Of a stretch of 35,684 nt of DNA, positions 8,470 through 26,138 are shown piece by piece. Source of the stretch: Candidatus Bathyarchaeota archaeon A05DMB-2. GTDB lineage: Archaea; Thermoproteota; Bathyarchaeia; Bathyarchaeales; Bathycorpusculaceae. Under the pieces are notes generated by a model. That model worked only from the letters and a program-made list of their open reading frames with translations. It searched no databases and was not told the DNA's origin. The translations under genes were made by a program, and so were the position numbers. The stretch is taken from NCBI GenBank assembly GCA_018475625.1, contig JAAKEZ010000015.1, positions 1 through 35,684 of the forward strand, read 5' to 3'. Position 1 is the stretch's first letter. The number at the start of each line of letters is the position of its first letter.

Positions 8470-8604
8470 TTTCGGCATCCCTTTTGTGCAGTTATGCCCA
8501 TCTTCCTTAAAAACTCAGTCCCATATAATATTGTGAAGCGCTATGGAAACGTACAATTTTTCCGCAGCGCCTTCAAACATAAAGCTGGTCAGGAACGCAC
8601 AACC

Positions 8605-9690
8605 GTGAAGATAATAGAAAAAAACCTAAGGCAGGGCTTCGTAAAGGTCGTTCCAACCTCTGAAGACGATCTTTGGCACTTGTACAACGTCATCTTTAAG
8701 GGCGATGAGGTTTACGCTTTCTCTTCAAGAGCGATTAAAACTGACCAAGAGTACTCTCGTCCCAAAAGCGCCGAGCGCGTCTCAGCATTCATGGGCGTCA
8801 AGGTCGAATCGGTGACATGGGACAAGTTCTTGGGCAAGTTGCGAGTGCACGGGATAATCTGCCATGCGCCAGAAATCATCCCAACAGGCGCCCACCACAC
8901 GCTCAACATAACCTTGAACCAGCCCCTAACAATTGTGAAGAAAGAGTGGTCCCCACACTTGCTCGATAGATTGAAGCAGGCAAGCTTAAGCGAGAAGCCC
9001 ATGATAATCTTAAGCATAGACGATGAAGGCTTCGCGTTAGCCGAAACCAGACAGTACGGCATAGAAATAAAACTGGAAGAACGCATAAAACTGCCAGGAA
9101 AGCATGAAGCAGAAAAAAGAAGCAGCGCAACCAAAGAATACTTTAACCGCGTAATCGCCAGCCTAACCCAACTGTGGACGCCCGCGCACAACCCCATCAT
9201 AATCGTGGGCGTGGGTTTCTTAAAAAACGACTTTGCGAAATTCTTAGCTGATGAAGCCGTGGAAATCTCTAACTCAGTGGTAGACGTGAAAAGCGTGAAC
9301 AACGATGGAGTAGCAGGAATCTATGAGGCATTGCGCTCTGGCGTTCTTCTGAAATCTGCAAAACAGTTGCGTATAGTTGATGAAACTGAAATCATGGAGG
9401 AAGTTATGAAACGCCTCGGCAAAGACGAGGGCACGGTCACTTATGGACTAGAACAGGTGGAAGCAGCAGCTAATCTGGGCGCCGTTGAAAAACTAGTTGT
9501 GGCAGACACCATGTTACGTGATGCTGTGGATGAACAGCGGCTCAAAATAGAAGAGTTAATGCATAGCGTGGAGCAGCGCCGCGGGACCGTGACTGTCGTC
9601 AGCACAGAACACGAAGCAGGAGCCAAACTCCTCGCTCTTGGCGGGATCGCCGCGCTCCTCAGGTTTCCTATCCATCGTGAAACTTCATGA
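8605..9690 (+). CDS. pelA: mRNA surveillance protein Pelota (Dom34)
   Basis: Ribosome-rescue factor that enters the empty A site with an aEF1A-type GTPase and lets ABCE1 split stalled ribosomes. The N-terminus KIIEKNLRQGFVKV, followed by SEDDLWHLYNVI, is the Sm-like domain 1. The central eRF1-like domain contains PIIIVGVGFLKNDFA and has no GGQ, as expected for Pelota. Domain 3 ends TVVSTEHEAGAKLLALGGI. The open frame continues upstream to 8494, but the family begins at this sequence. A GTG at 8605 with AGGA 10 bases upstream gives 361 aa, close to the archaeal norm. A TATA-like box (catataatatt, ~8521-8531) precedes it. Confidence 0.93.
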   Translation: MKIIEKNLRQGFVKVVPTSEDDLWHLYNVIFKGDEVYAFSSRAIKTDQEYSRPKSAERVSAFMGVKVESVTWDKFLGKLRVHGIICHAPEIIPTGAHHTLNITLNQPLTIVKKEWSPHLLDRLKQASLSEKPMIILSIDDEGFALAETRQYGIEIKLEERIKLPGKHEAEKRSSATKEYFNRVIASLTQLWTPAHNPIIIVGVGFLKNDFAKFLADEAVEISNSVVDVKSVNNDGVAGIYEALRSGVLLKSAKQLRIVDETEIMEEVMKRLGKDEGTVTYGLEQVEAAANLGAVEKLVVADTMLRDAVDEQRLKIEELMHSVEQRRGTVTVVSTEHEAGAKLLALGGIAALLRFPIHRETS

Positions 9691-19689: not shown

Positions 19690-20415
19690 TTGAAATCAAA
19701 AAGAAGATACAAACGCGGATACCCCGTCGCAATCCTCGCAGCAATAGAAGAAAACCAAGCAACCCTCTGGAAAATCTTCAGCAGTGTCGTCAAACATGAA
19801 AAAAACATCCAACTCAACGGCGCCAGAAGCAACCCGAAAGTCCTGTACAACTTCCACGAAGCAATCGTAAACGCCCTAAGACCAACATTGAAAGAAGGCG
19901 TCAGAAGCATAATAATCGCAGCGCCAGCGAGAACTAGCCACGCCCAAACGTTCATAAACCACGTTCACGAGCATCACACTTGGCTCAGCCAAGGTCCAAA
20001 CAAAGCCGCAATCGCCCAGATAACTGGCTCAGTCAGCACTCCGTCTCAGGTGGCAGCACTGATACGCACGCAAGCGTTCCAGCAGATAATCAGCGAAACC
20101 GCTGATGAAGAGACAGAAAACCTAATCGCCCTGCTGGAAAAACGCCTCAACACAGCAGACCAGAGTAGCGGCGTGCTGTTTTCGCTTGAAGAAGCCGAAG
20201 ACCTAATTCTCCAACGTCAAAAGCCAAGCAGCGCTAAACCTGAATATCTCCTGCTCACCGACAAGTACCTCGCGGACACGCGTGAAAAAAGCAGGCTGCA
20301 CAGGCTCATGCAAATCGCGGCAAACAAGCATGTCAAAACAAGGATGATTGACGCAGAATCGCCAGCGGGAAAAAGGCTTACACAACTAGGCGGAATTGTC
20401 TGCTTAACCCAGTAA
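19690..20415 (+). CDS. Pelota/eRF1-like protein lacking the N-terminal domain (Vms1/VLRF1-like)
   Basis: Residues ~8-130 follow the central eRF1/Pelota RNase-H-like domain (AILAAIEENQATLWKIF, YNFHEAIVNALRP, GVRSIIIAAPARTSHAQTFINHV). Residues ~140-241 follow domain 3, and the end MIDAESPAGKRLTQLGGIVCLTQ mirrors STEHEAGAKLLALGGI of the real Pelota encoded at 8605-9690. Domain 1 is absent and there is no GGQ loop. The basic N-terminus MKSKRRYKRGYPV could contact RNA. Such shortened paralogues recall Vms1-like release factors that hydrolyse peptidyl-tRNA on split ribosomes. That function is an inference. The start is TTG 19690 with AGGTGA 7 bases upstream. Its 3' end overlaps the HisA-like gene by 12 bases. 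Confidence 0.75.
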   Translation: MKSKRRYKRGYPVAILAAIEENQATLWKIFSSVVKHEKNIQLNGARSNPKVLYNFHEAIVNALRPTLKEGVRSIIIAAPARTSHAQTFINHVHEHHTWLSQGPNKAAIAQITGSVSTPSQVAALIRTQAFQQIISETADEETENLIALLEKRLNTADQSSGVLFSLEEAEDLILQRQKPSSAKPEYLLLTDKYLADTREKSRLHRLMQIAANKHVKTRMIDAESPAGKRLTQLGGIVCLTQ

Positions 20416-21138
20416 ACCCTCACGCTTCAGCGCGTCTGGCGAGATTTTGCCCGAGTGCAAAGCCGTAGCCAACAAAACGCCGGAAACGCCCAGATTTTTC
20501 AGCGCTACCAAATCTTTGATGTTCCGAACCCCTCCGCCCACAAGCACTTTAATGCTTAAGCAGGCTAGCGCCTGCCTCAGAACAGGCATGTTGACGCCTT
20601 TGCCGCTGCCAACCCGCGCTAAATCCAGCAAAATAACTTGGTTCACGCCCATCTCTTGAAATGTATGCAGTAAAACCATCGGTTGCGCACGCACAGCATC
20701 GTTTAGCTTGCTGAGCACCTTGCCGTCCACCATGTCAAGGCTAACCACAACCCTGTCTTTTCCGAGAGCTTCAACTGCGTCTGCGACAAAATCAACATAC
20801 TGCAGAGTCTCGGTTCCAATAACAACCTTCGCAACGTGACTATCCATAAGCTTCCTCGCCCTTTCAATGTCCGCCACGCCAGCGTCAACCATCAGATCCA
20901 GCCCCATCCCATCCGCGATCTGTCGAAAAAATGAAAAATTCGTTCGCCCACCCATAATGGCGTCTAAATCAGCCACATACAACTCGCTGAAGCCCAGCGC
21001 TGCAAGCGCTTTGGCAACGTTCACGGGCTCTGCAGAGGAGCATAGGACGCTCTTGAGTGGCCGGTACTCTTTTCTTCTGCCTCGGACAGCGTGAACTGCC
21101 ACACCGTTCAGAACATCCATAACGGGTATTACCTTCAA
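20404..21138 (-). CDS. HisA/HisF-related TIM-barrel protein (COG1411)
   Basis: TIM-barrel sugar-phosphate isomerase-like protein of 244 aa. The barrel is shown by IPVMDVLNGVAVHAVRG (D8), ELYVADLDAIMGG, LMVDAGV, VVSLDMVDGKVL (D135) and IKVLVGGGVRN, with the C-terminal phosphate-binding GVLLATALHSG. HYRPLKSVLC-like wording after the first strand matches the COG1411 group rather than true HisA, and the ligand-loop tryptophan of HisA is not visible. The group is known from organisms with H4MPT-linked C1 metabolism. It is head-to-head with the methanofuran operon, so a role in making or recycling C1 cofactors is a fair inference. The start is TTG 21138. Confidence 0.85.
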   Translation of the reverse strand: MKVIPVMDVLNGVAVHAVRGRRKEYRPLKSVLCSSAEPVNVAKALAALGFSELYVADLDAIMGGRTNFSFFRQIADGMGLDLMVDAGVADIERARKLMDSHVAKVVIGTETLQYVDFVADAVEALGKDRVVVSLDMVDGKVLSKLNDAVRAQPMVLLHTFQEMGVNQVILLDLARVGSGKGVNMPVLRQALACLSIKVLVGGGVRNIKDLVALKNLGVSGVLLATALHSGKISPDALKREGLLG

Positions 21139-21245: not shown

Positions 21246-21980
21246 TTGAAGCTACTGATAAGTCCAAATGATGAAAAAGAAGCAGTGGAAGCCATCGCTG
21301 GCGGCGCAGACATCATAGACGTCAAGAACCCAAAGGAAGGCGCGTTAGGCGCTAATTTCCCATGGATAATTAGGCGAATCAGAGAATTAACACCACGAAA
21401 CATCGAAGTCAGCTGTGCACTCGGCGAAATGCCCAACTGTCCAGGCGCCATGTCGCTGGCGGCTTTAGGCGCGGCAACAATAGGCGTAAACTACGTCAAA
21501 GCAGGCCTCGCAGGGCTCAAAACATCCGACGCTGCAGTGGACCTTATGCAAAACATCACCAGAGCTATCAAAGACTACAACCCTTCAATCAAGGTGGTTG
21601 CGGCAGGCTACGCAGACGCTGAACGGGCAGGCGCCGTCGACCCCTTGCTGGTGCCTGAAATCGCCTACAAAGCTCACGCTGATGTGGCGATGCTGGACAC
21701 TGCGGTGAAGGACGGCAAAAATCTCTTCGCTTTTCTGTCAGTAGACCAGCTTAGAACCTTCGTTTCTGCCGCGCATGGTTATGGGTTAATGGTGGCGTTG
21801 GCGGGCGCGTTAAGGAAAGAGGATTTAGCCGCGGTTCAGGCGTCGGGTGCTGATGTGGTGGGCGTGCGAAGTGCCGCTTGCGCTAACGGCGACCGAATCA
21901 GCGGACGCATCACTCGGGAAAAGGTACGAGAACTCGCCGAAATCGTCAAACGTGCAAAACTGCAAGCATGGAGCCCTTGA
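21246..21980 (+). CDS. mfnB: 4-(hydroxymethyl)-2-furancarboxaldehyde-phosphate synthase
   Basis: Makes the furan ring of methanofuran by condensing two glyceraldehyde-3-phosphates. It is a DUF556 TIM barrel of 244 aa. The catalytic lysines described for the Methanocaldococcus enzyme are found at the same numbers: K27 (IIDVKNPKEGALG) and K155 (MLDTAVKDG), with D25 and D151 beside them. GVNYVKAGLAG and CPGAMS are further family segments. The start is a TTG at 21246 without a clear ribosome binding site; TTAAAG ~40 bases upstream may be the promoter. It is the first gene of mfnB-A-D-F-E. Confidence 0.95.
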   Translation: MKLLISPNDEKEAVEAIAGGADIIDVKNPKEGALGANFPWIIRRIRELTPRNIEVSCALGEMPNCPGAMSLAALGAATIGVNYVKAGLAGLKTSDAAVDLMQNITRAIKDYNPSIKVVAAGYADAERAGAVDPLLVPEIAYKAHADVAMLDTAVKDGKNLFAFLSVDQLRTFVSAAHGYGLMVALAGALRKEDLAAVQASGADVVGVRSAACANGDRISGRITREKVRELAEIVKRAKLQAWSP

Positions 21981-21983
21981 CTT

Positions 21984-23135
21984 TTGCGAACTAAAGGGTT
22001 GAGCAGGAAAGCGGTGCTGGCGGAGCTAACGAAGGCTCGGGAGCAAGACTTGAAGTACGCGGACGGCAAAATCCTTTGCTCCATGTGCACCGAACCCCAT
22101 CCAATGGCGAAAAAAGCTCAGCAACTTTTCTCAAGCTCAAATCTAGGCGACCCGGGCCTGTTTCCGGGAAGCCGACGCTTGGAAAAAGAAGTCATTAAAA
22201 ATTTGGCGTCGCTTCTTAACGGCGAGGACTGCGTCGGCTTCTTGGTTTCAGGTGGGACAGAGGCAAACCTGCTGGCGCTGTTAGCTGCAAGAAACCGGGC
22301 AAACGTCAGCAATCCTGAAGTGGTCTTGCCTGAATCAGCTCATTTCTCGTTAACTAAGGCATGCAAGTTGCTGGGATTAAAGGCTGTCCGCGCAAGCTTA
22401 GACGCCTCGTTTAGGGTTGACGCATCATCCGTGAAGAAACTCGTTAACGAGCGCACGATTGCCATAGTCGGCACGGCAGGCACAGCTGAACTTGGCGCGG
22501 TCGACCCGATTGGCAAGCTTTCCGAAATAGCTCTAAATCACGGCGTTTATCTGCATGTGGACGCCGCCTTTGGCGGTCTCATACTCCCCTTCCTTAAAAA
22601 TGCTGGCAGTAACGAGGCGGCGTTTGATTTTCAATTAAAAGGCGTTCAATCAATAACCGTTGACCCGCACAAGATGGGGTTAACCACGATTCCCGCGGGC
22701 GGGATCTTGTTCCGCGACCGTGCGATTTTGAATTACCTCAAGACGGAAACGCCATATTTGACTGAAGACCGCCAGTACACGTTCGTGGGAACAAGACCCG
22801 GCAGTTCAGCCGCAGCCGCGTGGGCTGTTTTTCAAACGTTAGGTCGAGAAGGATTCGAGAAGACCGTTAAACACTGCATCGGCTTAACAGAGCGTTTGGC
22901 GTCTGGGCTTAAGGCGCTTGGCTTTACGCTCGTCGCTGAACCCACGCTGAACATCGTGGCTTTCCGCGGCGTCGGCACGAAGGTTCTTTCGGAAAAGCTG
23001 CGCGAGCAAGGCTGGCTCATCTCCTACGTTCCGCGCCTTGACTGCATCCGTTTAGTCGTGATGCCTCACGTGAAGAGGTGGCATGTGGTTGCTTTCCTAG
23101 AGAACTTGAACGCCATTAAAGAGGAAAGCTTTTAG
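21984..23135 (+). CDS. mfnA: L-tyrosine/L-aspartate decarboxylase
   Basis: PLP enzyme of the group II decarboxylase family that makes tyramine for methanofuran; relatives also make beta-alanine for CoA. The PLP site is DPHKMGL with Schiff-base K230; HVDAAFGG (191-198) supplies the ring-stacking His and the pyridine-binding Asp. LVSGGTEANLLAL (88-100) is the phosphate-binding segment. GLFPGSRRLEKEV at ~58-70 is typical of the archaeal MfnA clade. At 383 aa the length is normal. The start is TTG 21984, three bases after the mfnB stop, with GGAG ~11 bases upstream. Confidence 0.95.
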   Translation: MRTKGLSRKAVLAELTKAREQDLKYADGKILCSMCTEPHPMAKKAQQLFSSSNLGDPGLFPGSRRLEKEVIKNLASLLNGEDCVGFLVSGGTEANLLALLAARNRANVSNPEVVLPESAHFSLTKACKLLGLKAVRASLDASFRVDASSVKKLVNERTIAIVGTAGTAELGAVDPIGKLSEIALNHGVYLHVDAAFGGLILPFLKNAGSNEAAFDFQLKGVQSITVDPHKMGLTTIPAGGILFRDRAILNYLKTETPYLTEDRQYTFVGTRPGSSAAAAWAVFQTLGREGFEKTVKHCIGLTERLASGLKALGFTLVAEPTLNIVAFRGVGTKVLSEKLREQGWLISYVPRLDCIRLVVMPHVKRWHVVAFLENLNAIKEESF

Positions 23136-23176
23136 GCATGCGGTTTTCTCTGTCGATTCTAGAGGATTAATGAGCT

Positions 23177-24415
23177 GTGAAGCTTCTGGTCTTTGAGCAC
23201 GCTTCAGGAGGCGGCTTCGCCGACGCACCTTTACCGCAGGGTGTTTTGACCGAAGGGGTCGCAATGCTGCGTGCGGTGATCGCAGATTTTAAAGCCGCTG
23301 GGCACGAGGTGACAACTTTGCTTGATTCCCGCGTTGCCACGTTCAGCCCGCCCTTAGAATCTGACTTTGTCGTTTCTGTTTCGTCTCAGCAAGAAACAAA
23401 GGAGGCGTTGCGAAGACTCTCTGAATCCGCAGACGCTGCTTGCGTGATTGCGCCTGAAACCGATAAGGCGTTGCAGTTACATGTGGCGAGCTTGGAACAG
23501 ACTGGCGTGACGCTGCTAAACTGTTCATCCCGCGCCATCGAGGAAGCAGGAGATAAAGCCGTTCTTCACGAGCACCTCAGGAGGCTTGGCGTGCTCATGC
23601 CCGAAACCATGGTGCTCAGTGTGCAGGATGGGGTAACGGAAATCAAGCGGGCGGTTGACAATCTCGGTTTTCCCGCGGTTTTCAAGCCTTTGGATGGGGT
23701 TAGTTGTCTTGGCTTAAGCGTCGTCCGCAGTGAAGCTGAAGTGGGTGGTGCGGTTAGCAAGCTAAAGCGAGAGTCAACTAGCAAGCATTTTTTGGTTCAG
23801 AAACTGGTTAATGGCGTGACTGCGAGCGTTTGCCTAATCTCCACCGGCGACGAAGCTTTGCCTGTCAGCTTGAACAGACAGGACGTCACGCTTGGGGCGT
23901 CCAACGCCGTTTCAAGTTACGATGGGGGGTTAGTTCCACTTGACAGCCCGCTCAAATGCGACGCTTTTGCTGTGGCGAAGAAAGTTGTAGAGTCCTTTCG
24001 GGAGCTACGGGGGTTTGTGGGGGTTGATTTGGTTCTGACCGACGAGGAACCTGTGGTGGTGGAGGTGAATCCTCGCTTAACCATGTCCTATGTCGGGTTG
24101 AGAAACGTTACAAATTTTAATCTTGCTCATGCCATCGTCAACGCGGTTTTACTTCGGCAACTGCCAGCTGATATGCAAACGTGCGGTTACGCCTATTTCT
24201 CGAAAGTAACTGTGCCCTGCACCAAAGCCGATGCGTTTCGAGAAGCCTGCAGGATGAGCCAGGTGGTTTCTCCGCCTTTTCCTTTTAGAGGAGATGACTC
24301 TGCATGCGCAATTCTCTTATGTCGCGGCTCAACAGTAAAGGAAGCTTTGGCGCGTTTCAGCGAAGCTAAAAAGCAGTTCTTCACCACCATAAATGGAGGC
24401 AGACAGCGTTGGTGA
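23177..24415 (+). CDS. mfnD: Tyramine-glutamate ligase
   Basis: ATP-grasp ligase that joins the gamma-carboxyl of glutamate to tyramine. The N-terminus KLLVFEHASGGGFADAPLP and then GVLTEGVAMLRAV is the characteristic archaeal start. The ATP-grasp core is at ~105-310: DKAVLHEHLRRLGVLMPET, GFPAVFKPLDGVSCLG, HFLVQKLVNG, and metal-site VVVEVNPRLTMSYVGL. The length is 412 aa. The start is GTG 23177, with AGAGG about 11 bases upstream. Its last 7 bases overlap mfnF. Position between mfnA (tyramine source) and mfnF (user of the product) supports the assignment. Confidence 0.93.
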   Translation: MKLLVFEHASGGGFADAPLPQGVLTEGVAMLRAVIADFKAAGHEVTTLLDSRVATFSPPLESDFVVSVSSQQETKEALRRLSESADAACVIAPETDKALQLHVASLEQTGVTLLNCSSRAIEEAGDKAVLHEHLRRLGVLMPETMVLSVQDGVTEIKRAVDNLGFPAVFKPLDGVSCLGLSVVRSEAEVGGAVSKLKRESTSKHFLVQKLVNGVTASVCLISTGDEALPVSLNRQDVTLGASNAVSSYDGGLVPLDSPLKCDAFAVAKKVVESFRELRGFVGVDLVLTDEEPVVVEVNPRLTMSYVGLRNVTNFNLAHAIVNAVLLRQLPADMQTCGYAYFSKVTVPCTKADAFREACRMSQVVSPPFPFRGDDSACAILLCRGSTVKEALARFSEAKKQFFTTINGGRQRW

Positions 24416-25485
24416 ACGTGATTGGCTGGGACATAGGCGGCGCCAACACCAAAGCAGCCTTCATCAGCATCAGTAACGGCTGTGTCGAGGCACTTAAGGT
24501 TGCAGTCGAGTACTACCCAGTTTGGAAAGACCCTGAAAAGCTTGCAACAGTTCTTTCGCAGCTTAAGGAGAAGCTAAGCGGCGGAGCAAGACTTGACTGC
24601 GCTGGGGTGACTATGACGGCGGAGCTTTCTGACGCGTACCAGACTAAGCGAGAAGGCGTCACCCGCATATTAGAACACGTTGCCCGAGCCTTTGCGGATA
24701 TACCTGTTTTCGTTTTGGATATGGACGCCGAGTTGAGGTCGCTTAGCGAAGCCAAAAAGGAGCCCCTTAAGGTTGCCGCGGCGAATTGGGCAGCCACAGG
24801 CTGGCTGGTCGCTCAACAGATTGCAAACTGCGTTGTGGTTGACGTTGGAAGCACGAGCACCAGCATCATCCCCGTGGTGGGCGGGAGCGTTTCGGCGGTG
24901 GGTAAAAATGATTTGGAGAAACTTATGTGCGGAGAGCTCGTGTACACTGGAAGCTTGCGCACGAATGTCGCGGCAATCGTCGATTCCATTCCTATCAGAA
25001 GGGGTGTAGCTCGGGTTTCGTCGGAGCTGTTTGCGCAGTCAGGTGACGTTCACTTGGTTCTGAGGAACATCACGGCAGAGGAGTACACTGTTGAGACGGC
25101 TGACAGCCGCGGGAAAACAAGAGCTGAAGCAATGGCTCGGCTTGCCCGGGTTGTCTGCGCCGACACGGAAATGCTGACGGAAAAGGAAATTACCCAGATG
25201 GCAACGTACATCCATGAACGCCAGACCGCACAGATAGCAGGCGGACTAAGACAAGTTTACTCACGCGCAGCCCGCATCTCTGGTGGGAAGGTTCCCGTGG
25301 TTGTCACAGGGTTGGGAAGAGATTTCTTAGCGAGAAAGGCAGCTGAAAGTATAGGAGTTGAAGAAATCGTGAACCTTGGCGAATTAGTGGGAAATGCCGG
25401 GGCTACTTCAGCGTCGCCTGCTGTTGGTGTAGCCCTGATGGCCGCAGGCAAGATTGAAGGTGTGGCTCCAAGATGGATGCCATAA
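24409..25485 (+). CDS. mfnF: APMF-Glu synthase (H4MPT-linked C1 transfer pathway protein)
   Basis: Condenses the activated furan (F1-diphosphate, the MfnE product) with gamma-glutamyltyramine to form the APMF-Glu core. It has the ASKHA (actin/hexokinase-like) fold: GWDIGGANTKAAF at the N-terminus is the first phosphate loop, CVVVDVGSTSTSIIPVVGG (~139-157) is the second, and VPVVVTGLGRDF is the adenosine-type motif. MTAELSDAYQTKREGV (~69-84) is a family signature. The length is 358 aa. GGAGG is 9 bases before TTG 24409; GTG 24412 is the alternative. It overlaps mfnD and mfnE. Confidence 0.94.
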   Translation: MVNVIGWDIGGANTKAAFISISNGCVEALKVAVEYYPVWKDPEKLATVLSQLKEKLSGGARLDCAGVTMTAELSDAYQTKREGVTRILEHVARAFADIPVFVLDMDAELRSLSEAKKEPLKVAAANWAATGWLVAQQIANCVVVDVGSTSTSIIPVVGGSVSAVGKNDLEKLMCGELVYTGSLRTNVAAIVDSIPIRRGVARVSSELFAQSGDVHLVLRNITAEEYTVETADSRGKTRAEAMARLARVVCADTEMLTEKEITQMATYIHERQTAQIAGGLRQVYSRAARISGGKVPVVVTGLGRDFLARKAAESIGVEEIVNLGELVGNAGATSASPAVGVALMAAGKIEGVAPRWMP

Positions 25486-26138
25486 TAAAGGTGGGAGGTA
25501 GCTTAGCCGAAGAGCCAGAAGCGCTTCGGGCTTTATGCAGCAAGTTAAGCGAGTTAGCCAAGAGGCATACGTTAGTTGTGGTGCCTGGAGGCGGCAAGTT
25601 CGCAGACACTGTGAGGGATGTTGACCAGCGTTTTTCTCTTCCATGTGATGTTTCGCATAGGATGGCAATTTTAGGCATGGACCAGTTTGGGCTGCTGCTG
25701 TCAGCCGTCACGCCAGTTTCCATTGTTTCACGCACACCAGACGATTTAGAGGGAATCTCCTCAATGGGTAAGGTGTCGATTTTTCTGCCGTCGCATATGA
25801 TGTTGAAGGAAGACCCGCTGGAGAATTCTTGGGACGTTACGTCAGACTCCATAGCCGCTTACATTGCCAAACGCCTAGGCGCTGCCAAAATCATTTTAGT
25901 CACCGATGTTGACGGAATTTTCACGGAAGACCCAAAGAAAAACGCAAGCGCCAAGCTAATCCCAGCGATTTCAGCCCAGACGCTGCTGAAACTGGGCCGA
26001 AGGACAAGCGTCGATAAATTCCTCCCTAAACTGCTTCTGGAAGTGTCGCTGGATTGTTACGTGGTCAACGGGAAATACCCGATGCGGATAAGCCAAATCA
26101 TGGAAGGACAAAGAACACCATGCACGCGCATAACATAG
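25473..26138 (+). CDS. mfnE: [5-(aminomethyl)furan-3-yl]methyl phosphate kinase
   Basis: Amino-acid-kinase-fold enzyme that phosphorylates the aminomethyl-furan phosphate to a diphosphate, ready for MfnF. IIKVGGSLAEEP (~4-15) and LVVVPGGGKFADTVRD (~34-49) are the phosphate-binding loops; SWDVTSDSIAAYIAKRLGA and ILVTDVDGIFTEDPKKN form the nucleotide part. The length of 221 aa is typical. The ATG at 25473 lies inside the mfnF end (13-base overlap), showing tight coupling. The last gene of the operon; mfnC (the aminotransferase) is not found after it. Confidence 0.94.
   Translation: MDAIIKVGGSLAEEPEALRALCSKLSELAKRHTLVVVPGGGKFADTVRDVDQRFSLPCDVSHRMAILGMDQFGLLLSAVTPVSIVSRTPDDLEGISSMGKVSIFLPSHMMLKEDPLENSWDVTSDSIAAYIAKRLGAAKIILVTDVDGIFTEDPKKNASAKLIPAISAQTLLKLGRRTSVDKFLPKLLLEVSLDCYVVNGKYPMRISQIMEGQRTPCTRIT

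Follow-up and report, generated by a model that had tools for sequence, protein, structure and literature searches.

Genes of the locus

The window considered here, that is, the whole stretch of 35,684 nucleotides that was analyzed (contig JAAKEZ010000015.1 of Candidatus Bathyarchaeota archaeon A05DMB-2), carries a methanofuran biosynthesis operon, mfnB-A-D-F-E, and, divergently oriented to it, a gene for a HisA/HisF-like protein. For this TIGR00734/PF00977 gene we use the label hisL. Very probably, the locus is a module for methanofuran biosynthesis in a bathyarchaeon that is not a methanogen, with hisL as a further functional member, and it comprises the following features (aa, amino acids; PLP, pyridoxal phosphate):

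20404–21138, minus strand: hisL, HisA/HisF-like (beta-alpha)8 protein of the TIGR00734 family (Orf17/MJ0703 kin), 244 aa; TIGR00734 163.8 bits, PF00977 163 bits
21139–21245, no strand: divergent intergenic region between hisL and mfnB, 107 bp, presumed from its sequence to hold both promoters
21246–21980, plus strand: mfnB, (5-formylfuran-3-yl)methyl phosphate synthase, 244 aa, TTG start; NF002573 328.5 bits, PF04476 268.3 bits
21984–23135, plus strand: mfnA, PLP-dependent tyrosine decarboxylase, 383 aa, TTG start; TIGR03812 502.9 bits
23177–24415, plus strand: mfnD-like, putative ATP-grasp tyramine–glutamate ligase homologue, 412 aa, GTG start; NF040722 118.6 bits, PF02655 108.8 bits
24409–25485, plus strand: mfnF, furan/glutamyl-tyramine coupling enzyme, 358 aa, TTG start; TIGR03123 333.3 bits, NF040623 255.6 bits
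25473–26138, plus strand: mfnE, putative aminomethylfuran phosphate kinase, 221 aa, ATG start; NF040622 187 bits

Proteins were assigned by their best informative NCBIfam or Pfam profile match, and for all five mfn products these matches lie within the Mfn families, in agreement with an earlier note on this DNA that had proposed the operon from the sequence alone. Gene order and coordinates were also confirmed: all five open reading frames (ORFs) are located on the plus strand and are separated by gaps of 3 and 41 bp or overlap by 7 and 13 bp. Five consecutive genes for a single pathway whose clustering is also conserved in dozens of relatives cannot be ascribed to chance. The nearest public mfnB locus stems from a ‘Candidatus Bathyarchaeota archaeon’ (92% protein identity), and Bathycorpusculum metagenome-assembled genomes are also among the matches. 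The catalytic residues named in the note (MfnB K27 and K155, MfnA K230) were all found: in MfnB, the residues D25, K27, K85 and K155 do not vary among 16 aligned relatives, and K230 of MfnA, the PLP lysine, is part of a DPHK motif. MfnA scores above the curated cut-off of its family (299.4), as does MfnF for TIGR03123 (cut-off 244.1), and both MfnB and MfnF belong to their respective families. The assignments of MfnD and MfnE remain putative, resting on best match, position and co-occurrence. The MfnD-like protein is extended at its C-terminus by about 75 residues, and its homologues in 40 loci have a median length of 414 aa.

In these respects the locus is an ordinary methanofuran operon of an already known kind and had been read correctly. 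The earlier description does not mention the divergent hisA-like ORF, which makes a sixth conserved gene. Nor can its suggestion be upheld that TTG and GTG starts point to deliberately low translation: mfnB starts with TTG in 30 and with GTG in 11 of 51 relatives, so that these starts are a habit of the group and not a local signal. A scan of the region between hisL and mfnB retrieved no sigma-70-like site, a result to be expected, and uninformative, in an archaeon.

The enzymes that use methanofuran are encoded in the same genome (Bathyarchaeia, 2.48 Mb, 96% complete). FwdD-B-A-C and Mch are specified by adjacent genes on contig C20, the two genes for Ftr both reside on contig C37, and a search of the genome for McrA found none. 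Taken together, the FwdDBAC-Mch operon, the two Ftr and the lack of McrA therefore uphold the prediction of a probable non-methanogen that relies on formylmethanofuran-dependent one-carbon (C1) chemistry. A complete archaeal Wood-Ljungdahl route has been published for related Bathyarchaeia (PMC7886697; PMC10477458), and by analogy with these relatives the full route may be expected in the host. In the host FwdB, the match to the family profile is split into two pieces within one open frame; about 47 inserted residues separate them close to profile position 170 (C20:353702–353842, between the profile pieces). Such two-piece matches are common to most genomes of the host's order, and one piece is found in other orders.

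Linkage and co-occurrence of hisL with mfn genes

hisL is located in the mfn neighborhood in 37 of the 51 mfnB loci of the class, and this linkage occurs in at least five arrangements, one of which is shared with betaproteobacterial plasmids. The window represents the type hisL< mfnB> (arrowheads indicate gene orientation). Other arrangements within the class are mfnB> mfnE< mfnF< mfnD< hisL>, mfnD> hisL> mfnB> mfnF< and mfnB> mfnE< mfnF< mfnD< hisL<, and an Odinarchaeote has mfnB> mfnE< mfnF< hisL> mfnD<. In a Baldrarchaeote, hisL lies about 4 kb from mfnB, and many Methanobrevibacter loci contain a TIGR00734 gene about 5–6 kb from mfnB. On plasmids of Aquabacterium and Azoarcus, the order mfnB> kinase< mfnF< ATP-grasp< HisA/HisF-related> is identical to that of one bathyarchaeal group, and in Thiodictyon and Paraburkholderia an ATP-grasp<hisL> part occurs together with mfnF.

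hisL could be a paralogue of HisA from the histidine pathway that sits beside mfnB by coincidence, in which case only the five mfn genes would belong together. The protein does fall into PF00977 with HisA and HisF and has a HisA-like fold, and in several genomes its gene adjoins pelota-like and thioredoxin genes and not mfn genes. This explanation is nevertheless extremely unlikely, as the linkage with mfn genes survives several rearrangements in two domains of life, hisL occurs only in genomes that also contain mfnB, a separate hisA is present in the host (contig C15), and hisL forms a clade of its own with different active-site motifs. On the grounds of the separate hisA, the motifs and the clade we reject hisL as an ordinary HisA. 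The pelota-like gene of the window (19690–20415(+)), which is short and matches only the C-terminal part of the pelota profile, lies beside hisL in 22 loci. It was considered as a partner in the module and discarded, since the linkage is confined to one family (these 22 loci) and the gene does not occur in the other arrangements. A full-length pelota is encoded at 8494–9690 of the window.

All markers were scored in one common set of 151 genomes from the class Bathyarchaeia. hisL was called at 274 bits or more; the next matches, at 158 bits or less, are HisA/HisF. We found mfnB in 51 genomes, MfnF in 51, hisL in 49 and MfnA above the cut-off in 35, and the C1 markers Mch, Ftr and FwdB in 120, 126 and 121, respectively. 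As the latter three are present in 120–126 genomes versus 49 for hisL, hisL tracks methanofuran synthesis and not the C1 pathway. It occurs in 49 of the 51 genomes with mfnB and in none of the 100 without it (Fisher p = 9e-38, a value to be read with the reservation that the genomes are related and not independent). Because of this relatedness, joint absence within genera is the stronger point: in each of the genera g3, g33 and g57, mfnB, mfnF and hisL are jointly missing from genomes whose sisters retain all three. In one of the two exceptions (G125) hisL is cut off at a contig end; the other is taken up below.

The same counts bear on the idea that hisL acts in the synthesis of tetrahydromethanopterin (H4MPT), as once proposed for MJ0703, and follows the mfn genes because both cofactors are used together. 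H4MPT and methanofuran genes indeed adjoin each other in bacteria. Yet Mch is present in 120 of the 151 genomes as opposed to 49 for hisL, all of the latter with mfnB, and a Methylorubrum extorquens (M. extorquens) mutant lacking orf17, a relative of hisL, makes methenyl-dH4MPT and no methylofuran (PMC8141765). Counts and mutant both speak against an H4MPT gene, and we regard this role as very unlikely.

Identity and proposed role of hisL

In a phylogenetic tree, the hisL family, including its Asgard, methanogen and proteobacterial members, separates from HisA/HisF on a branch with 100/99 support. Compared with the phosphoribosyl isomerases HisA and PriA (PF00977), hisL shares the fold (TM-score about 0.85) and the aspartates at D8 and D135, both of which are invariant in hisL and which we take to correspond to the acid-base pair of HisA, whereas sequence identity is as low as 23–25%. 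The family members compared (bathyarchaeal, Asgard, methanogen and proteobacterial) have a GxRxxY motif close to the N-terminus, and their strand 3 ends with DxG; HisA and HisF lack GxRxxY and have GGG at the position of DxG. The exchange of GGG for DxG was also considered as a loss of the phosphate site and this was dropped, because the last glycine is retained; only a change in charge is claimed. The AlphaFold model is a TIM barrel with a predicted local distance difference test (pLDDT) score of 93.5 and HisA/PriA as the nearest fold, and no chain of the hisL family was among the sequence matches in the PDB. The TIGR00734 score is 106.5 bits for a proteobacterial homologue and 202.2 bits for one from Methanobrevibacter.

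The genetic evidence comes from M. extorquens, where Orf17 is required for methylofuran, as demonstrated by deletion and complementation (PMC8141765). The mutant no longer forms methylofuran and still produces methenyl-dH4MPT; it lacks glutamylated intermediates, indicating that Orf17 acts early (PMC8141765). No activity has been assigned to Orf17, and for lack of a known function it was left out of the proposed methylofuran pathway despite being required; MJ0703 is named there as the homologue in Methanocaldococcus jannaschii (PMC8141765). Beyond this study, full-text searches of the literature yielded no other paper on Orf17 in connection with methylofuran or on MJ0703. By analogy with M. 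extorquens Orf17, the only member for which the requirement has been proven (PMC8141765), hisL would be needed for furan-carrier synthesis in archaea as well, and its involvement there is likely. It probably stands for a further, still unexplained step of the methanofuran pathway.

According to the published biochemistry of the Mfn families, the operon would work as follows. MfnB would condense two triose phosphates to formylfuran phosphate, which an unlinked aminotransferase in the role of MfnC would aminate, and MfnE would convert the product to the pyrophosphate; MfnA and MfnD would provide glutamyl-tyramine, and MfnF would couple both halves, the product serving Fwd, Ftr and Mch, whose genes lie in other parts of the genome. 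hisL would be an early-acting TIM-barrel enzyme whose substrate, a phosphorylated furan precursor, is converted prior to the coupling step. Chemistry of the isomerase or lyase type is the best candidate, in our view a somewhat doubtful one.

A number of observations weigh against a complete module that includes hisL. MfnB stays slightly below the equivalog cut-off of NF002573 (341), and the NCBIfam equivalog cut-offs for MfnD, MfnE and MfnF, which were trained on methanogens, are missed: the MfnD-like protein (118.6 of 400, NF040722) and MfnE (187 of 300, NF040622, with UMP kinase as the next-best match at 61.8) fall clearly short, and MfnF reaches 255.6 of 520 on the stricter NF040623. hisL itself has TIGR00734 as its best match and falls short of the cut-off of 179.85. 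An aminotransferase that could represent MfnC is neither present in the cluster nor common to the neighborhoods of its relatives, and the profiles name none of the host aminotransferases (alanine-, LL-diaminopimelate (LL-DAP)-, aspartate-, HisC- and CobD-like) as MfnC. hisL lies away from the mfn genes in some genomes, and it is truly absent from one genome that is 98% complete and contains mfnB, mfnF and mfnA (G004). Finally, published in vitro work assigns the core of the pathway to MfnA-F and involves no HisA-like protein.

The closest known systems resemble the window in part. With mfnA-F of M. jannaschii it has five of six enzyme families and the catalytic residues of MfnB and MfnA in common, whereas the host is a non-methanogen, the genes form one compact operon that hisL adjoins, the 412-aa MfnD-like protein scores low on the methanogen MfnD model, and mfnC is missing from the cluster. 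The methylofuran cluster of methylotrophic Pseudomonadota (orf22/21/9, myfA, orf17) likewise unites mfnB, mfnE, mfnF, an ATP-grasp ligase and the HisA-like Orf17, and the order mfnB> mfnE< mfnF< mfnD< hisL> is identical in other Bathyarchaeia and on the Aquabacterium and Azoarcus plasmids. In contrast to that cluster, the window has mfnA and a hisL divergent from mfnB, and a second ATP-grasp ligase (MyfB) was not seen in its cluster.

Methanofuran genes and methanofuran-using enzymes in Bathyarchaeia

A further alternative holds that the cluster makes some other furan compound and not a formyl carrier, as MfnB homologues encoded on Streptomyces plasmids may do. These occur in a setting other than that of mfn genes: one of them has neither hisL nor other mfn genes within 8 kb. 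The Streptomyces homologues (for example L182, NZ_CP108584.1) show about 48% identity, are encoded beside aldehyde and alcohol dehydrogenases, and possibly serve a furan natural product. In the window, by contrast, none of mfnA, D, E and F is missing, and Fwd, Ftr and Mch are encoded in the genome. Throughout the class, genomes with mfnB or mfnF have at least two of FwdB, Ftr and Mch, i.e., none of them lacks more than one of the three, and the 23 genomes without any of these markers are devoid of mfn genes. A product other than a formyl carrier is hence most improbable. The kind of carrier may differ: MfnA above the cut-off is missing in 24 of the 52 genomes with mfnB or mfnF, and these may form a tyrosine-type carrier as in M. 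extorquens instead of a tyramine-type one.

FwdB, Ftr and Mch are jointly present in 113 of the 151 genomes. mfnB or mfnF accompanies them in 48 cases, and the other 65 genomes, single-contig and 100%-complete assemblies among them, have no recognizable mfnB, mfnF or hisL. These organisms must scavenge methanofuran, make it with unknown genes or replace it by another carrier. Methanimicrococcus offers a contrast, as it lost mfnBDEF along with the methanofuran-using enzymes (PMC9723798). One genome of the host's order (G115, 1.9 Mb) has five Mch and six Ftr matches and neither mfnB nor mfnF.

The analysis adds the link of hisL to mfn genes in both domains, together with the many genomes that have methanofuran-using enzymes but no known mfn genes. 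There is an even chance, in our estimation, that hisL (TIGR00734/Orf17) is a missing, widely conserved furan-core enzyme of archaea and bacteria, catalyzing a step outside the present pathway, and that, as a separate matter, the majority of those Bathyarchaeia whose formylmethanofuran enzyme sets are complete acquire methanofuran, or substitute for it, in an unknown way. The 65 genomes caution that the presence of the archaeal Wood-Ljungdahl pathway need not mean that an organism synthesizes its own methanofuran. As the bathyarchaeal data indicate, archaeal members of the Orf17 family likewise have their place in the synthesis of the furan carrier as opposed to that of H4MPT, and the role of the family thereby becomes testable in genetically tractable methanogens.

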